This document shows positions 1,042-8,916 of a DNA stretch of 8,916 bases, one piece after another. A program made the position numbers and the translations under genes. Origin of the DNA: an uncultured Mollicutes bacterium (GTDB taxonomy: Bacteria; Bacillota_I; Bacilli_A; RFN20; CAG-826). How positions within the stretch are numbered: position 1 is the stretch's first letter; every line of letters starts with the position of its first letter. The stretch lies in the NCBI GenBank assembly GCA_937893635.1, contig CALBGF010000113.1:1-8916 (forward strand). The letters are read 5' to 3'. The notes beneath the pieces are model-generated. The model ran no database searches and had not been told where the DNA came from. It worked only from the letters and a program-made list of their open reading frames with translations.

Positions 1042-3987
1042 GTGAAACAAAATATGATTAAGAAAATTATTTGCCTACCTCTTATTGCTATAGTTGTCGC
1101 TAGTGTAATAGTGGGCAATGTAATCGCAGACTTTTATTCTTCAGAAATAAATAGTTTGTTATGTCCCCCAATTCATGATAGTGAAGATTTAGATAGACAA
1201 CAAGAAGAAGGGCAAAAATTATCAAAACAAATTATTCAAGAAGGTGCAGTTTTAGTAAAAAACGATGGAAATGTTTTGCCTTTAAATAAAGAAACTAATC
1301 GTAAGGTAAATGTATTTGGACATTCTTGTGTTGACTGGGGATTTGGTGGCTCGGGTTCCGGTAGAGTTAGACCGGAAAATGATGACTTTTCCACAACAAT
1401 TGATCTATTAAAAGCATTAAAAAGATATGGAATTGATTATAATTCTGAATTAGTTAATATGTATAAAGATTATCGTGGAATTGGAAGAATTGAAGAAGCT
1501 CAAGACCGTGCGATGTATGCGTTATATGAGCCAGAAATCACTAATAAAAAATATTATTCTGATACTTTATTAGAAAATGCCAAAAATTATTCTGATACTG
1601 CAATTGTTACAATTACAAGATTTGGCGCGGAAGGAGTAGACCATACTTTAGAAAACGGTGATACCCGTTCTGATTTGGAAATTTCTATAGAAGAAGAAGG
1701 ATTATTAAAATATGTAGGAGCAAATTATGAAAATGTTATAGTTTTAATTAACTCCGCGAATACAATGGAATTAGGATTTTTAGATACTATTCCAGGACTA
1801 GATGCTTGTTTAGTAATAGGTTTAACAGGTACACAAGGTGTAGCATCATTACCTAAATTATTATATGGAGAAAATACTCCTTCGGGCAAATTAGTGGATA
1901 CATATGCTTATTCATTTAAAAGTAGTGTTTCTTATAACTATTATGGTCAAGCGGCATGGTATCAACCATATGGCTTTTATGATTATATAGAAGGAATATA
2001 TGTTGGCTACAAATGGTATGAAACAGCATATAAAGAAAATTATTGGGAAAATGTAGATAATGAATATGGTAAAGGTTATGACGGCGTGGTTCAATATCCA
2101 TTTGGTTTTGGCTTATCTTATACTGATTTTAAGTGGTCAGTAGAAGAGATGATTGTTAAAAATGGCGAAGAAGTAGTTACTAATAATATTATCAATGAGA
2201 ATAGTACGATTAGTTTTAAAATTAATGTAGAAAATGTCGGTAAAATGGCCGGTCAAGATGTAGTAGAGTTTTATTTAACCGCTCCATACATAAAAGGCGG
2301 AATTGAAAAATCTTATGTTAATTTAGTGGGATTTGAAAAAACAGAAATTATTAATCCAGGATTTTCTCAAGTTCTTGAATTTACCTTTAATGTTTCTGAT
2401 TTTGCTTCTTATGATTGCTATGATAAAAATAATAACGCACATGTCGGATATGAATTAGATAAAGGAACATATGCCTTAAAATTAATGACTGATGCTCATA
2501 ATTTAAAAGATTGTGAACAAAATACTTTTGAATTTGAAGTAGAAGATACAATTAATATTATTAATGATAAATATACTGGTGAAGAAGTTACTAATCGCTT
2601 GACTGGTGCATCTTCATTAGATGGTGCTTCAGTTGATGGAAATGATGATGGAAATGTTGTTGTTAATTATATATCTAGAGATTCGTTCCCATCTTTAAAT
2701 GATTTATCAGTACCGGCAAATAGAACATTAACCGATAAACAAATTAAAGCCGGAAAATATTCAAAACAAGAAGCAGAAGCTTGGGATAATGCCACAACTG
2801 ATAGTTATAACAATCAAGTTTTTAATGAAAAAGTAACTTGGAATAAGAATAATAACTTATCAATTACTGATAGTAAGGGTAATATCACAAAATTAGGTTA
2901 TGAATTAGGTGCAGATTATAATAATGAAAAATGGAATGATTTGCTTGATCAATTATCTATTGAAGAAGTAGTTAATATGGTTAGTAATGGTTATGCATCA
3001 AGCAAAGAATTATCATCAATTGGTAAACCAAAATTATTTGATTATGATGGTCCAATGCAAATTAAAGGATTTACGGGTAAGCCACGTGGAACAGGATATC
3101 CAAGTGAACCAGTATTAGGACAAACATGGAATAAACAATTAGCGAAAAACTATGGCTTAAGTTTTGGTAAAGAAATGAATGCTTTAGGCGTTAATGGTTT
3201 ATATGGATTTGGTTGTAATATTCATAGAAGTCCAATTTGTGGTAGAAACTTTGAATATTTATCAGAAGATAGCTATTTAACAGGAGCAATGTTAACTAAT
3301 GCTGTAATTGGTATTCAAAACACAGGTAGATATGCTTATATTAAACACCTTGCTTTAAATAATGGTGAAGCAAGAAGAGTAGGTGCCTTTACTTGGTGTA
3401 CAGAACAGGCATTAAGAGAAATATATTTAAAACCATTCCAAATGGCTATCCAAGAAGGAGACTGTGTAGCGTTAATGTCTTCTTATAACCGTGTAGGTGC
3501 GAATTGGTCAGGTGGTAGTGTTGGTTTAATCGACGCTATTGTAAGAAAAGAATGGGGCTTTAAAGGAGCGCTTATTACAGACTGTGCTGGTGTGGATAAT
3601 GCTGATTATATGAATATGGATGAAGCATTGAGAGTTGGTGGAGATTTAGGTATGGAAACACCTTTAAATGCTAGTAAATCTGGCTATACCTTAAATTATA
3701 GCAAGTCATCTTCTAATCGTCTCCAATATCAATTAAGAGAAGCAGCGCATCATGTTACTTATTCTTATTTAAGGGTGCAATATCAAAATGATTTATATAA
3801 CAAATCTAATACCGATAACAAGATTACAAGTAGTTATTCGATTAACTCTTGGGCGTGGTGGCGTGTTGTTTTAGTAGATCTTGATATATTAATATCATTT
3901 GCATGTTTGATTTGGCTTTATTTCTTATTTAGAGAAGATATCTTAAAACTTCTAAATAAAGGAGGAAATGACAATGAAAATGCTTAA
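1042..3987 (+). CDS. Membrane-anchored GH3 beta-glycosidase, reversed domain order
   Basis: A 981-residue glycoside hydrolase family 3 enzyme, expected to release sugars from the non-reducing ends of beta-glucosides or related glycans. Its domains are in the reversed order known for some GH3 enzymes of gut and rumen Firmicutes. A hydrophobic anchor lies at 9-29. The alpha/beta sandwich (usual C-terminal) domain comes first, about 50-365, with EGAVLVKNDG at 67 and the probable acid/base E197 in GAEGVDH. A fibronectin III-like domain spans about 382-500. The TIM-barrel (usual N-terminal) domain spans about 630-900, with DYDGP at 667-671, K768-H769, R779 and the probable nucleophile D847 in LITDCAG. 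A second membrane segment lies at about 942-963, followed by a short charged tail. All the catalytic positions I expect are present, so it should be active. An N-in topology for the first segment would place the catalytic domains outside. The start is a GTG, and the end overlaps the next gene by 14 bases. The linkage (gluco-, xylo- or N-acetylglucosaminyl) cannot be assigned. Confidence 0.9.
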   Translation: MKQNMIKKIICLPLIAIVVASVIVGNVIADFYSSEINSLLCPPIHDSEDLDRQQEEGQKLSKQIIQEGAVLVKNDGNVLPLNKETNRKVNVFGHSCVDWGFGGSGSGRVRPENDDFSTTIDLLKALKRYGIDYNSELVNMYKDYRGIGRIEEAQDRAMYALYEPEITNKKYYSDTLLENAKNYSDTAIVTITRFGAEGVDHTLENGDTRSDLEISIEEEGLLKYVGANYENVIVLINSANTMELGFLDTIPGLDACLVIGLTGTQGVASLPKLLYGENTPSGKLVDTYAYSFKSSVSYNYYGQAAWYQPYGFYDYIEGIYVGYKWYETAYKENYWENVDNEYGKGYDGVVQYPFGFGLSYTDFKWSVEEMIVKNGEEVVTNNIINENSTISFKINVENVGKMAGQDVVEFYLTAPYIKGGIEKSYVNLVGFEKTEIINPGFSQVLEFTFNVSDFASYDCYDKNNNAHVGYELDKGTYALKLMTDAHNLKDCEQNTFEFEVEDTINIINDKYTGEEVTNRLTGASSLDGASVDGNDDGNVVVNYISRDSFPSLNDLSVPANRTLTDKQIKAGKYSKQEAEAWDNATTDSYNNQVFNEKVTWNKNNNLSITDSKGNITKLGYELGADYNNEKWNDLLDQLSIEEVVNMVSNGYASSKELSSIGKPKLFDYDGPMQIKGFTGKPRGTGYPSEPVLGQTWNKQLAKNYGLSFGKEMNALGVNGLYGFGCNIHRSPICGRNFEYLSEDSYLTGAMLTNAVIGIQNTGRYAYIKHLALNNGEARRVGAFTWCTEQALREIYLKPFQMAIQEGDCVALMSSYNRVGANWSGGSVGLIDAIVRKEWGFKGALITDCAGVDNADYMNMDEALRVGGDLGMETPLNASKSGYTLNYSKSSSNRLQYQLREAAHHVTYSYLRVQYQNDLYNKSNTDNKITSSYSINSWAWWRVVLVDLDILISFACLIWLYFLFREDILKLLNKGGNDNENA
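3958..3965 (+). promoter_or_regulatory. Ribosome site inside the GH3 gene, for the surface-protein gene
   Basis: AAAGGAGG within the last GH3 codons lies 8 bases before the ATG at 3974 but only 2 bases before the ATG at 3968. Spacing therefore favours 3974 as the start. The arrangement suggests that ribosomes finishing GH3 re-initiate on the next gene. Confidence 0.7.
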
Positions 3988-6907
3988 ATTAGAAAAAATA
4001 ATTCTTATTGCTATTTCATCAGTTGCTGTTTTATCAAGTATAATTGTACCAACGGCCTCCTATATATCTTATAAGCATTATTATGATGATGCGATAGCTA
4101 ATAAACCAAAACCAAGTAATAATCAAACATATGATGAACCAATACTTCAGTCCATTAGTGTGAGATTACAAGATGGTAAAGCTTTCTATAAAAATGGTAA
4201 AGCTAATCCTGTTAAAACTGATTTTGTTGTTGAAGGAACTTATGCCATAAGTGAATTAGAAACTATTACCGATGAAATTAGTCCTTCTGATTATAATATG
4301 GAAATTCCAAATGATTTTGCTATTAATGGAGGAACTATAAGTGTAACTTATAAAGAATTTACAAGTTCTCTTGATATTACTTTAATTGATGTTAAATTAT
4401 CAAGTCTATATCCTTTAACAATGCCTTATAAAGTTTATTATAAAGTAGGAGAAACATTTGACGATGAAGGTTTAACATTAGAGGCTAAGTATAATGACGG
4501 AACAATTGTAAATGTTGATAAATTTGTAATAGAAAAGAAAACTTTAACCTCTGATATTAAAGATATTAAGATTTCATTTACCAAAGATAATGAGACAGTG
4601 GATTATTTACTTCCTATTACAGTTGTAGAAGAAAAAGATTACGATAATGGCGATGTTGTTTCTATTGACGCTAGTGAATCTTACGCTTCAGCGGGACTTA
4701 AATTATCTACAAATAATTTTATTTTAAGAGCGACATATGCCAGCGGAAATAAATTGCTATTAACAAGTACAGATTATACGATAGTTAATGGCGATGATAT
4801 CGTAACTTTAGGTGATAAAACAATTTTAAAACTTAATATTAATGGTAAACAAATTGATGTTGATATTAATGTATCTTCGAAAGTTGAAGCGATAAGCGGA
4901 ACATTAGAAAACGCTACAGCACATAGTGATTATGTATCATTTGTAAGTGATTCAAGTGCAACTTTCAAATTTAATGCTTCTCATAATTTTATGGGTAATA
5001 TTAACTTAAAATTAAGAAGCACATCTAAAGATAGTAAGTTAAATGATTTATTAAAAGTTACTGTTAATAATTCCTTAAATAGCATTGATAAAAATGTTGT
5101 TATATCAAAAGAAAATGAATTTGAAGTTTTATCAATAAATGATGTTAAACTATTTAAAGGTAATAACAATATCGTTATAAAATGTTTAAAAGATTCCTTT
5201 GATTTGGGTAATATTGATGTAACTAGTACAAGTGAAAACTTAAAAGATACAACATTAGGCGAATTTGTTATGTCTAATGATAAAGTGGAATTTAATAGAG
5301 AATGTGTATTTGGTGAAGGAACGCCAGCCGCAATTGATGGATTCACTCATGTACAAGGTGGATGTAGTGATGACAATTATATTTATTATCTTTTTGCGGA
5401 TGAATTAAATCATGAAGCTAAATTAACCAAATATAGTATTGAAGAAAATACATTTGTTTCTAAATCTAATAAATTCTCAATTGGACCAGATAGTACAGAT
5501 TGGACATGGGATTCGGGCAATATTACTTTAATTAAAGACAAAATTATTGTTACTGATTATCAAGGAAAATTCCAAGCCTTTGATAAAGAAACTTTGACCG
5601 AAGTGGCGTGTCCAGAATTTAAATTCCCAGATTTCTCTACGATGTTTGATGATTGGGATGAAAGCGGATCTATTACTGCATTTGAATATAATGAAAAGTT
5701 AGATATTTACGCTTTATCAGTTCGACCAGTATGGTGGTATTCTAATTCTTTCTTATTATTATTTGATGGAGATTTTAATCAAATAGGAGAAAAAATAACT
5801 TTAGAAAGCAATACTGACGTAAAATGGGGCGGATACAAAATGCGCTCTCTTCAAAGTAACGAGAATTATTTGTATGTATTATATGGTGAAGAAAATTATA
5901 AAAACGCTGTTGTTCAAATTTATTCTTGGAGTGGAACTTTAATTAAAGAACAAACATTTTCTGATATTGCACCATATGGTGGAACAAGAAGCTCGCCAAG
6001 AAATATTGTAGAATACAACGGTAGTTTATATTTAACTATTTATAACGATTCAGGTATGAATGGAGCAATATTATATAAAATCTCTTATGTTGAAACAAAT
6101 ATTGATTTACCATCTAAATCTTATTTAATTACTGGATCAAGTATTGTTTTAGAAAATGAAAAACCAATTTTAAAAATTCAAGGTTCATTATCGGATTTAA
6201 CAAAAGAAGACTTCAATCTTACTTTACTTGCGTTAAAAGAAAATTGGGAATATACTCTAGAAACTTTTGATATGGAAATTAATGGTGGAGCGTTTATTGT
6301 AAAATATGATTTAAGTAAATTATCATCCCAATATGATTACATTTTCTTCTTTAATAAAGTAGATGAACAAACATATGATGACGATGGTAATTTAAGAGAT
6401 GGAAAATCATTTATTGTTCCAACAGAAACTGTAACATATAATGGCTTTAATTATATTGGAAGTGATATTTGGGGCCATGCAGGACTAAAGATACAAGAAT
6501 ATCAAGTTCATGAAGATACAATTTCTTATAACTCATATAGATTAGAAAATGTTGATGGCAAAGCAATATTCACTATTAACGCTAATATTGATTTAGAAGA
6601 TATGTCAAAATTAAAATGTGTTATTGTGCGATTTACTTCTTGGGCTAATAGTTCTTTAGAATATGAAATTAAAAAACTAGATGATGGTACATATGATGTA
6701 TCGATAGATATATCTGATGTAGAAATAGATGGAAAAACCGATGATGGCCTTAATGGTGGATACTTTGTTGAATTAGCCACTGATACAATAAGCGATAATA
6801 AAGTTAAGCTTGGAGACGGATTAGATCCAATTACTATTGGAAATAGAACTTATTCATTTGAAGAATTCTATGGTAACTTAAAAATAGTTATTGAAACCGC
6901 AAATTAA
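3974..6907 (+). CDS. Multidomain membrane-tethered surface protein, unknown family
   Basis: A 977-residue extracellular protein that I do not recognise as a named family. A hydrophobic signal or anchor lies at about 9-32, then a Pro/Asn-rich linker (about 40-52). Three beta-rich Ig-like units follow to about residue 305; the second, near 140-219, carries the bacterial Ig-like pattern YKVGETFDDEG...AKYNDG (from 156). Residues about 309-420 resemble a jelly-roll carbohydrate-binding module, ending in a GNNNIVIK strand and LGNIDVTS. Residues about 440-705 are a run of short strands with repeated 'xxYLY.LY'-like patterns and many aromatics (W510, W512, W587, W588), suggesting a beta-propeller. 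Two related C-terminal modules follow (about 717-842 and 850-977). No LPXTG sorting signal or catalytic motif is seen. Its overlap with GH3 suggests joint production, and I infer a role in binding glycan or another ligand for the enzyme. A start at 3968 would add two residues. Domain borders are by eye. Confidence 0.85.
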   Translation: MKMLKLEKIILIAISSVAVLSSIIVPTASYISYKHYYDDAIANKPKPSNNQTYDEPILQSISVRLQDGKAFYKNGKANPVKTDFVVEGTYAISELETITDEISPSDYNMEIPNDFAINGGTISVTYKEFTSSLDITLIDVKLSSLYPLTMPYKVYYKVGETFDDEGLTLEAKYNDGTIVNVDKFVIEKKTLTSDIKDIKISFTKDNETVDYLLPITVVEEKDYDNGDVVSIDASESYASAGLKLSTNNFILRATYASGNKLLLTSTDYTIVNGDDIVTLGDKTILKLNINGKQIDVDINVSSKVEAISGTLENATAHSDYVSFVSDSSATFKFNASHNFMGNINLKLRSTSKDSKLNDLLKVTVNNSLNSIDKNVVISKENEFEVLSINDVKLFKGNNNIVIKCLKDSFDLGNIDVTSTSENLKDTTLGEFVMSNDKVEFNRECVFGEGTPAAIDGFTHVQGGCSDDNYIYYLFADELNHEAKLTKYSIEENTFVSKSNKFSIGPDSTDWTWDSGNITLIKDKIIVTDYQGKFQAFDKETLTEVACPEFKFPDFSTMFDDWDESGSITAFEYNEKLDIYALSVRPVWWYSNSFLLLFDGDFNQIGEKITLESNTDVKWGGYKMRSLQSNENYLYVLYGEENYKNAVVQIYSWSGTLIKEQTFSDIAPYGGTRSSPRNIVEYNGSLYLTIYNDSGMNGAILYKISYVETNIDLPSKSYLITGSSIVLENEKPILKIQGSLSDLTKEDFNLTLLALKENWEYTLETFDMEINGGAFIVKYDLSKLSSQYDYIFFFNKVDEQTYDDDGNLRDGKSFIVPTETVTYNGFNYIGSDIWGHAGLKIQEYQVHEDTISYNSYRLENVDGKAIFTINANIDLEDMSKLKCVIVRFTSWANSSLEYEIKKLDDGTYDVSIDISDVEIDGKTDDGLNGGYFVELATDTISDNKVKLGDGLDPITIGNRTYSFEEFYGNLKIVIETAN

Positions 6908-6923
6908 GGCTCATAAACTAAAT

Positions 6924-6957
6924 AATGACTAGTAAGTAAAATTATTAGTCATTTTTT
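6924..6957 (+). terminator. Intrinsic terminator of the GH3/surface-protein operon
   Basis: Arms 6924-6935 (AATGACTAGTAA) and 6942-6953 (TTATTAGTCATT) pair over 12 positions with one G-T wobble and a 6-base loop, followed by a T run to 6957. It begins 16 bases after the stop codon. The A-rich left flank might give some termination on the other strand too. Confidence 0.85.
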
Positions 6958-7101: not shown

Positions 7102-7137
7102 AAGATGAAAAACAAACATTAAAGATTTTATCAAAAC

Positions 7138-7197
7138 AAATGTTCTGATAAATGTTCTGATAAATGTATTGATAAATGTATCGATAAATCTTATAAT
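7138..7197 (+). repeat. 12-bp tandem repeat array upstream of the regulator
   Basis: Five end-to-end 12-base units: 7138-7149 and 7150-7161 are identical (AAATGTTCTGAT), 7162-7173 (AAATGTATTGAT) and 7174-7185 (AAATGTATCGAT) differ at two or three positions, and 7186-7197 is degenerate. The unit is about one helical turn longer by 1-2 bp, a spacing seen in iteron-type sites. Read in the downstream gene's own frame it gives repeated N-V-(L/S)-I until a TAA at 7205-7207. The regulator gene contains a similar stretch (8348-8380, encoding INVPINVSLNL). Confidence 0.85.
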
Positions 7198-7231
7198 AAA
7201 CATATAAAGAAAATAATTTGGGGTATATGTT

Positions 7232-8563
7232 ATGGAAGAAAGAGAAAATGAACAACTAGAGTATAAGAAGACAACAGCAGAATTAAAAGAAGGAGTTATA
7301 TCTTTGGCATCTATGCTAAATAAGCATGGACACGGAATTTTATATTTCGGTGTTAAGAATGATGGTTCAATTTTTGGACAACAAATTGGTAAAGATACTA
7401 CTTCAAATATATCTAAAGAAATCAAAAATTATTTAAGACCTGTTATTTCTCCTACAATTACATTATTAGAAATCAGTGATAAAAAAATTATTAAAGTAGA
7501 AGTATATGGTGAAGATAAACCATATGCTGCATATGGTAGATACTATCTAAGATCTGATGATGAAGATTTACAAATGACAAATGCTCAATTAGAGGATTTC
7601 TTTATAAATAAAAGTGTTGATTATTCAAAATGGGAGAATGAACTTACAGAATATGGTGAAGAAGTTGTAGATGAAGAACTTTTAATTTCATATATAAATA
7701 AAGGTAATGAAATAGGCAGAATTTCTTTTTTATATAAAGATGTTAATGATGCAATGACAAAACTTGGTTTAATGAAGAATAATAAACTAAATAATGCAGG
7801 CCTTTATTTATTTTCAAATTTAAAACCATTAACTTTAAAATTAGCCATCTATGCAACAGACGAAAGAATATCGTTTATAGATAATACTATTACTAAAGGA
7901 AATATATTTGAGTGCATTGATAGTGCCTACAAATATATTGTTAAAAACATAAATTGGAAAGCAGAAATAGTAGGCATGAATAGAGTTGAGACTCCAGAAA
8001 TACCTGTGGAAGCAATTAGAGAAATCGTTGTAAATAGTTTTGCTCACATGAAAGTTAACAATAGTTCATTTAATGAAATATATATAACTCCAACAAGAAT
8101 TCATGTGTATAATCCAGGCTTTTTGGCAAAAGGGAAATCGCCACTTGATTTTGCAAATGGAAGTAATGGACCGATTGCTAGAAATCCGCTAATTAATACA
8201 GTTTTGTATTTAAATAAAACAATTGAATCATTTGGCACTGGATTTGGTAGAGTATTTAAATTATGTGAGAAAGAAAATATTGATTATTTATATAGAAATA
8301 ATGAATTTGGTTTTGTTTTTGAATTTTTAAGAAAACAAAATTCATCTATAAATGTTCCTATAAATGTATCGTTAAATTTAACTAACACGGAAAATCTTGT
8401 GCTAGAAATAATAAAAAATAATAAAGGTGTAACTAAAACTCAAATCGCAAAAACTATTAATAAATCAGAGATGACTATTCAAAGGGCGATAAAAAAACTA
8501 ATTGATGAAAATTTAATTAGGCGTATTGGTTCAAATAAAACAGGTTACTGGGAAGTAATTTGA
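7232..8563 (+). CDS. AlbA/Schlafen-domain putative transcriptional regulator with ATPase-like domain
   Basis: A 443-residue soluble protein of the COG2865 type ('putative DNA-binding domain / ATP-binding protein'). An AlbA_2 (Schlafen-type) domain spans about 5-125, starting with QLEYKKT (8-14) and with GILYFGVKNDG at 35-45. A GHKL-like ATPase domain (HATPase_c_4) follows at about 245-350: PVEAIREIVVNSFAHM (258-273), with N268 as likely metal-binding residue, and ESFGTGFGRVF (332-342), a glycine-rich lid. A flexible NVPINVSLNL linker (374-383) leads to a winged helix at about 387-443. Families of this kind are annotated as transcriptional regulators; biochemical roles are mostly unproven and some lie in defence loci. 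The start at 7232 leaves a complete AlbA domain and has a modest GGGG at 7220-7223. The 12-bp array upstream and its echo in the linker code suggest self-control or past duplication. The gene ends with TGA and converges on the - strand gene. Family firm, target unknown. Confidence 0.88.
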   Translation: MEERENEQLEYKKTTAELKEGVISLASMLNKHGHGILYFGVKNDGSIFGQQIGKDTTSNISKEIKNYLRPVISPTITLLEISDKKIIKVEVYGEDKPYAAYGRYYLRSDDEDLQMTNAQLEDFFINKSVDYSKWENELTEYGEEVVDEELLISYINKGNEIGRISFLYKDVNDAMTKLGLMKNNKLNNAGLYLFSNLKPLTLKLAIYATDERISFIDNTITKGNIFECIDSAYKYIVKNINWKAEIVGMNRVETPEIPVEAIREIVVNSFAHMKVNNSSFNEIYITPTRIHVYNPGFLAKGKSPLDFANGSNGPIARNPLINTVLYLNKTIESFGTGFGRVFKLCEKENIDYLYRNNEFGFVFEFLRKQNSSINVPINVSLNLTNTENLVLEIIKNNKGVTKTQIAKTINKSEMTIQRAIKKLIDENLIRRIGSNKTGYWEVI

Positions 8564-8605: not shown

Positions 8606-8655
8606 AAAAAACTTCAGCATAATAGGATTGTTTTCCTCAATATACTGAAGTTTTT
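8606..8655. terminator. Bidirectional intrinsic terminator between convergent genes
   Basis: Arms 8607-8621 and 8641-8655 pair over 15 positions with a single C-A mismatch (8618), and an inner AGGA/TCCT stem (8624-8627 with 8634-8637) extends it. The left side is an A tract and the right a T tract, so it can end transcripts from both directions: the regulator gene on + (stop at 8561-8563) and the partial gene on - (stop at 8677-8679). Confidence 0.88.
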
Positions 8656-8676: not shown

Positions 8677-8916
8677 TTAATTGGCATTATTAATAACAAT
8701 CTTTAAATTGCCATACAAGTCCTCGAATGAATATGTTTTATTACCTATTGTAATTGTTTCTGGAGCGGTACCTAATGAAATAGAACCATCATCAATAGAA
8801 GAAGTCTTTAATGTTACTAGATAACCTTCATTTTTGTCATCGGATGTTTTTCCACAAATATCTAAATCTGAGATATCTATAGTAACATTAAATGAACCAT
8901 TACTTTGTTTTTCAAT
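8677..8916 (-). CDS. C-terminal end of a second surface protein of the same family (partial)
   Basis: A reading frame open from the right window edge ends with TAA at 8677-8679, giving the last 79 residues of a protein whose start lies outside. It aligns almost end to end with residues 899-977 of the surface protein encoded at 3974-6907: shared blocks are IDISD, GKT, ITIGN, TYSFE and YGNLKIVI, and both end in AN. I count about 44 identities of 79 by eye, with one or no gaps. It is therefore a paralogue of the C-terminal module; whether the rest of the protein shares the Ig-like and propeller parts cannot be seen. The DNA has diverged clearly, so it is not a recent copy. It converges on the regulator gene and shares its terminator. 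Confidence 0.85.
   Translation of the reverse strand: MEKQSNGSFNVTIDISDLDICGKTSDDKNEGYLVTLKTSSIDDGSISLGTAPETITIGNKTYSFEDLYGNLKIVINNAN

Follow-up and report, generated by a model that had tools for sequence, protein, structure and literature searches.

The 8,916-nucleotide stretch analyzed here, referred to as the window (contig CALBGF010000113.1 of GenBank assembly GCA_937893635.1, from an uncultured Mollicutes bacterium), carries two genes on opposite strands whose proteins end in a similar sequence, which raises the question of what this common end represents. A preliminary description of the same DNA, made without database searches, proposed a new terminal surface module, possibly involved in retention at the cell surface, secretion or partner docking. 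Here, the shared 79 residues turned out to form the second half of a domain that is about 128 residues long and occurs repeatedly, so that a new terminal module is not supported. The domain belongs to a real, unclassified family of an ordinary kind, namely a tandem repeat of surface proteins with a predicted beta-sandwich fold. The features concerned, described with reference to a 979-amino-acid (aa) protein of the window and to its relative P0017, are as follows.

8677..8916, - strand: last 79 codons and stop codon of a gene truncated where the contig stops, corresponding to the second half (profile positions 50-128) of a terminal repeat copy
8692..8736, - strand: closing beta-hairpin of this copy (TYSFEDLYGNLKIVI), assigned from sequence, from the strands 597-604 and 607-614 of the P0017 model and from conservation
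6521..6904, + strand: full-length terminal repeat copy, residues 852-979 of the 979-aa protein, delimited by the profile
6848..6892, + strand: closing beta-hairpin of the latter copy (TYSFEEFYGNLKIVI), assigned from sequence and conservation, with strands inferred from the P0017 model

The - strand gene has its stop codon at 8677-8679 and its coding part at 8680-8916, with the reading frame still open at the contig end. Gap-free alignment of its 79 residues with residues 901-979 of the 979-aa protein (3968-6907, + strand) gives 44 identities and a BLOSUM62 local score of 227, whereas 500 shuffles averaged 41 and did not exceed 68. This confirms a module common to two surface-type proteins as well as the earlier count of about 44 identities; the match had been given as 79 to 80 residues, whereas it is in fact 79 to 79. 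The conservation peak at TYSFE..YGNLKIVI was also correctly recognized: residues 61-75 of the 79 are the best conserved (13 of 15 identical), and four residues follow before the C terminus. For 22 of the 44 identical residues both genes use the same codon and for the other 22 they do not, which argues that the likeness within the window was kept at the protein level and is no fresh copy of DNA. Since the window tail is identical in 72-74 of 79 positions to the ends of 11 proteins, P0018-P0028 (610-617 aa), and in 70 of 79 to that of P0017, the cut gene can be assigned to the 610-621-aa family of relatives.

Three protein searches yielded 14, 31 and 40 matches (from 754 candidates in the first, and from 7991 and 7993 scored candidates in the other two), and grouping by size and alignment gave families of 970-979 aa, 610-621 aa and 591 aa, the first of which includes the 979-aa window protein. 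P0014 (857 aa), P0016 (428 aa) and P0047 (396 aa) are shortened members of the first, second and third family, respectively. With the iterated repeat profile, 67 clear copies (E-value below 1e-10) were detected in 27 of 34 proteins, a set made up of the window's 979-aa protein and 33 relatives. The copies are 21 first, 19 second and 26 terminal copies as well as one cut copy ending P0016; at this threshold, P0014 and the six 591-aa proteins P0029-P0034 (7 of 34) are without a copy. As a rule, the 610-621-aa family possesses three copies head to tail, and the 979-aa family one clear copy, perhaps with a divergent one before it. The fact that 40 of the 67 clear copies lie inside proteins contradicts the notion of a terminal module; regarding internal positions in cytoplasmic proteins, which the preliminary description had named as the contrary outcome, internal positions are thus frequent and cytoplasmic carriers were not seen. 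Moreover, a profile built from terminal copies only matches the first copy in all of the eight long relatives P0006-P0013 (E 1e-3 to 2e-7). With the same profile, the second copy is matched in seven of them (E 6e-26 to 1e-29), and P0009 reaches no more than E 0.09. Profile-profile comparison gave 99.5% for copies 2 and 3, 88.8% for copies 1 and 2 and 83.5% for copies 1 and 3.

The 591-aa proteins have only their N-terminal third in common with the 610-621-aa family: between P0017 and P0029, 191 of the first 205 residues are identical, as compared to 70 of 352 for the remainder in a forced alignment. The C-terminal part of the 591-aa proteins differs and resembles, by eye, two lectin-type jelly rolls. 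Pfam gave no match for P0029 and P0031, and the PDB no sequence match for P0029, these being the members tested.

Like the repeat and its internal copies, mosaic relatives are a direct observation. One of the underlying comparisons left aside P0014, P0016, P0029-P0034 and the window piece P0015. The terminal copies of P0006 and P0007 are identical to that of P0005, a member of the 979-aa family, in 117 and 122 of 125 positions, but to that of P0011 in only 72 and 73 of 125, while their bodies match that of P0011 in 460 of 485 and 469 of 486 positions. In one copy of P0008, a stretch of 35 residues is letter for letter that of the 979-aa window protein, and the rest of the copy follows its own family. 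P0009 has, where copy 2 would be expected, the domain found ahead of the terminal copy in the 979-aa family (identical in 102 of 124 positions, as compared to 32 of 110 with copy 2 of P0017). Modules therefore appear to have been swapped between the gene families in these relatives, and in the window itself no recent exchange is visible.

Two further explanations of the conserved ends have to be weighed against these data. A C-terminal sorting or secretion signal would agree with the strongest conservation being located in a 15-residue stretch close to the C terminus, which the preliminary description considered odd for a plain structural domain. This was examined in an alignment of 17 copies, obtained from the 67 by removing those at least 90% alike, which left 21, and by excluding the terminal copies of P0001, P0003 and P0028 and the cut copy of P0016. 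Mean column identity in the 15 hairpin columns as compared to elsewhere was 0.75 versus 0.57 in the nine internal copies and 0.92 versus 0.70 in the eight terminal ones. Since the closing hairpin stands out likewise in internal copies, its conservation is nothing unusual in a structural domain and needs no terminal signal. The same alignment has an invariant Trp at module position 41. With the profile of terminal copies also matching internal ones and an LPXTG-like motif being absent from seven scanned proteins, which include the 979-aa protein, P0017, P0011 and P0029 (in line with the preliminary description), a terminal signal was rejected and we regard it as hardly tenable. The other explanation attributes the likeness in the window to a gene-conversion tract of recent origin between the two genes, instead of to selection on the protein. 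It could draw on the mosaic relatives and on the N in IGNK and the Y in YGNLK of the window tail, residues that elsewhere characterise the 979-aa family and that none of the 12 closest relatives P0017-P0028 has at these positions. However, at half of the identical residues the two genes use different codons, and they have no inverted DNA repeat of at least 20 bases linking their ends. For this pair a recent event is contradicted and was rejected, and the explanation is very improbable for the window.

That the module is unrecognised, as stated in the preliminary description, holds true for the family libraries searched: nothing above cut-off was found in Pfam or NCBIfam, and the best PHROGs matches (E 0.05 and 0.32) are not credible. 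In NCBIfam, the 979-aa protein gave one match, outside the module and below cut-off (residues 269-335, 17.2 bits where 830 are required, E 0.0015). Among the sequences of solved structures, the whole protein was without a match at E up to 1, the module profile gave one chance-like match (E 0.18) and two consensus sequences reached E 0.45 at best. Two pattern scans of genome contigs, each with two short peptides, gave 67 and 51 raw stretches of which none was confirmed, which does not demonstrate absence from sequenced genomes; two such scans of viral contigs gave 67 and 215, again with none confirmed. No plasmid sequence matched P0017 up to an E-value of 0.1, and Rfam yielded nothing at gathering thresholds. 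Titles and abstract beginnings of open-licence literature contained no description of the module or of genes swapping ends like this, which is no proof of its being unpublished. In the N-terminal part of the repeat carriers, no Pfam family exceeded the cut-off in P0011, P0017 and P0024, the last having an hGDE_N match below it (E 0.004).

In the model of P0017 the repeats are confidently predicted to be all-beta, with the last strands (597-604 and 607-614) forming the predicted closing hairpin. The repeat is probably immunoglobulin (Ig)-like, as judged from structural matches to TarS, TarL and RmlT and from whole-model matches, all obtained with a relative's model; the predicted structure of the 979-aa window protein is too poor for the module. 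The four structural matches lying wholly within the repeats are wall teichoic acid enzymes, and the whole-model matches are mostly multi-domain FN3 or Ig receptors; the viral structure library gave whole-model matches of very large root-mean-square deviation (rmsd) only, which are uninformative for the module. The nearest known domains include the C-terminal tandem domains C1 and C2 of Staphylococcus aureus TarS (PDB 5U02, 5TZ8; Pfam TarS_C1), although at 14-15% identity, an rmsd of 6.0-6.9 Å and without a sequence-profile match, and although TarS is a glycosyltransferase, whereas the repeat carriers are secreted or membrane-anchored proteins. Pfam TarS_C1 (PF18674) matched none of 17 copies at E up to 10 and none of five consensus sequences, with HMMER filters dropping most matches above about 0.1. 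A search for TarS_C1 in one Niallia plasmid was negative, but uninformative, as the control matched none of 14 genomes either. TarS_C1-type domains are attached to a glycopolymer-building enzyme, whereas the repeat accompanies an N-terminal part in which no Pfam family passes the cut-off or a propeller-like protein. Further likeness was seen to the N-terminal part of S. aureus TarL (PDB 8VA1) and the C-terminal part of Listeria RmlT (PDB 8BZ4; rmsd 8.7 Å, 8% identity); unlike these proteins, the repeat carriers gave no match to a known enzyme part. FN3 and Ig-like receptor domains are all-beta and arranged head to tail as is the repeat, but they show no sequence match, and their whole-model matches begin in the N-terminal domain and, where multi-domain, have a very large rmsd. 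By eye, a Trp followed by GxxxVxxD is presumably common to the repeat and to CBM48. Membership in CBM48 found no support: hhalign gave a probability of 0.1% against seven GlgB, GlgX and TreZ domains, although so few sequences offer little power, and Pfam gave no match. The C1 domain of TarS has itself been likened to CBM48 in one article (PMC5156392).

With regard to function, we consider it moderately probable that this all-beta repeat, which an AT-rich bacterium carries close to the end of two protein families that are secreted or anchored in the membrane, is an accessory glycan-binding module acting beside a membrane-bound GH3 glycosidase and reassorted between the families by homologous recombination. 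A Bacillota host can only be guessed at from base composition and protein style. Judging by the N-terminal segments, the repeat would be situated outside the cell next to the GH3 enzyme, where it might bind a glycan that serves the enzyme as substrate or, alternatively, a wall polymer of the cell itself, and homologous recombination between the two families would exchange modules and thereby reassort the binding parts. The main rival, close to the retention at the cell surface considered in the preliminary description, is that the repeats bind the cell's own teichoic-acid-like polymer and hold secreted proteins at the wall without a covalent anchor. This would be in accordance with the four wall teichoic acid enzymes matched within the repeats, with the lack of an LPXTG-like motif and with the reported attachment of Lactobacillus S-layer proteins to teichoic acids (PMC11181022). 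However, the 979-aa protein already possesses a hydrophobic N-terminal segment (residues 5-33), which makes retention less likely as the main task of the + strand protein; P0029-P0034, which share the N-terminal part, are without a clear copy, so that the repeats are not required by every member of that group; and a sequence match to wall teichoic acid enzymes is lacking. Retention by the wall polymer survives as an unlikely but serious alternative. No less doubtful is the proposal that the repeats are inert beta-sandwich spacers which keep another domain off the membrane. Tandem Ig-like domains often act as spacers and most whole-model matches are multi-domain FN3 or Ig receptors, but the repeats are C-terminal. 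The N-terminal hydrophobic segment and, in the 979-aa protein, also the propeller-like part come before them, and judging from this order they would have nothing to carry. A more elaborate scenario, which we regard as rather improbable, is that of a gut-type bacterium with a set of surface receptors in which a constant N-terminal cassette would be combined with exchangeable C-terminal binding parts, either tandem repeats resembling teichoic acid enzymes or a different domain pair, the repeats also being traded with the nearby propeller-like protein on the opposite strand; crossover of the inverted 3' ends would then flip the intervening regulator gene and, in a single event, swap both protein ends. 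P0012 (614 aa) and P0040 (591 aa) both have a longest contig of 10,956 bases and might share a contig, as would be expected of a receptor set with one N-terminal cassette. Additionally, the common longest contig size of P0003 and P0017 (22,543) hints at a conserved neighbourhood.

With this repeat, the tandem domains of surface proteins in bacteria gain an unclassified family, with a link to accessory domains of teichoic acid enzymes suggested from structure only. Should it bind such polymers, exported proteins would also make use of a domain known from enzymes of wall building, and the mosaic relatives provide a natural set of swapped modules for the comparison of binding.

The 979-aa protein and the gene upstream of it comprise the following further features.

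3968..6907, + strand: 979-aa surface-type protein with N-terminal hydrophobic segment, a part with a sub-threshold Big_3 match, propeller-like part and, at its end, one clear and one doubtful repeat copy
6119..6517, + strand: possible divergent repeat copy, residues 718-850, from a weak end-to-end profile alignment and a similar domain in P0009
5336..6085, + strand: beta-propeller-like part, approximately residues 457-706, from blocks with a predicted local distance difference test score of about 41-84 and from structural matches
1042..3987, + strand: GH3 glycosidase gene directly upstream, its protein having a hydrophobic segment at each end and its 3' end overlapping the start of the 979-aa gene

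The relatives of the 979-aa protein start at the ATG at 3974. Its Big_3 (Ig-like) match is below cut-off, and the top structural matches of its propeller-like part include BamB, the designed Tako8 and BtuG, which we take to be propellers. Residues 718-850 align end to end with the repeat over 108 columns, although weakly (E 0.011, probability 3.9%), as compared to E 0.029 and 0.032 over 21 columns for two other domains for which no kinship was expected; a second, divergent copy is thus possible, but not proven. The GH3 gene is the likely operon partner of the 979-aa gene, and the two products fit a membrane-bound glycan-degrading pair. Hydrophobic segments were found at residues 4-34 and 938-968 of the GH3 protein, 5-33 of the 979-aa protein and 5-24 of P0017. 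The same scan found none over threshold in P0011, from the second family, and one at 78-96 in a HAD protein, and is hence only a rough guide. The HAD protein is a small protein encoded at 137-754 that matches HAD_SAK_2 (HAD domain of RNA repair proteins, E 9.3e-19), with no link to the surface genes seen. By Pfam, the GH3 protein has GH3_C first (70-323), then the Fn3-like domain (406-478) and the GH3 N-terminal domain last (644-863). A GH3 subfamily with permuted domain topology has been published for GlyA1 (PMC5104943).

Beyond the 979-aa gene lies a hairpin at about 6920-6957 (z -5.6), and a strong hairpin with T runs on both strands precedes the end of the - strand gene at 8607-8655 (z -4.6, -6.9); a consensus terminator scan listed neither. 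The product of gene 7232-8563 is an AlbA_2 (Schlafen-type) protein that carries a winged helix at its C terminus. Just upstream of it, about five tandem 12-bp units (AAATGTTCTGAT-like) at 7136-7201 overlap the top-scoring promoter-like site of the window, TTGATA-17-TATAAT at 7169-7197, such sites not being enriched in the window (52 observed as compared to 62.6 expected from shuffles). An additional 30-nt copy of the array (83% alike) is located inside the AlbA_2 gene at 8348-8377, and the array looks like an operator for self-regulation of AlbA_2.
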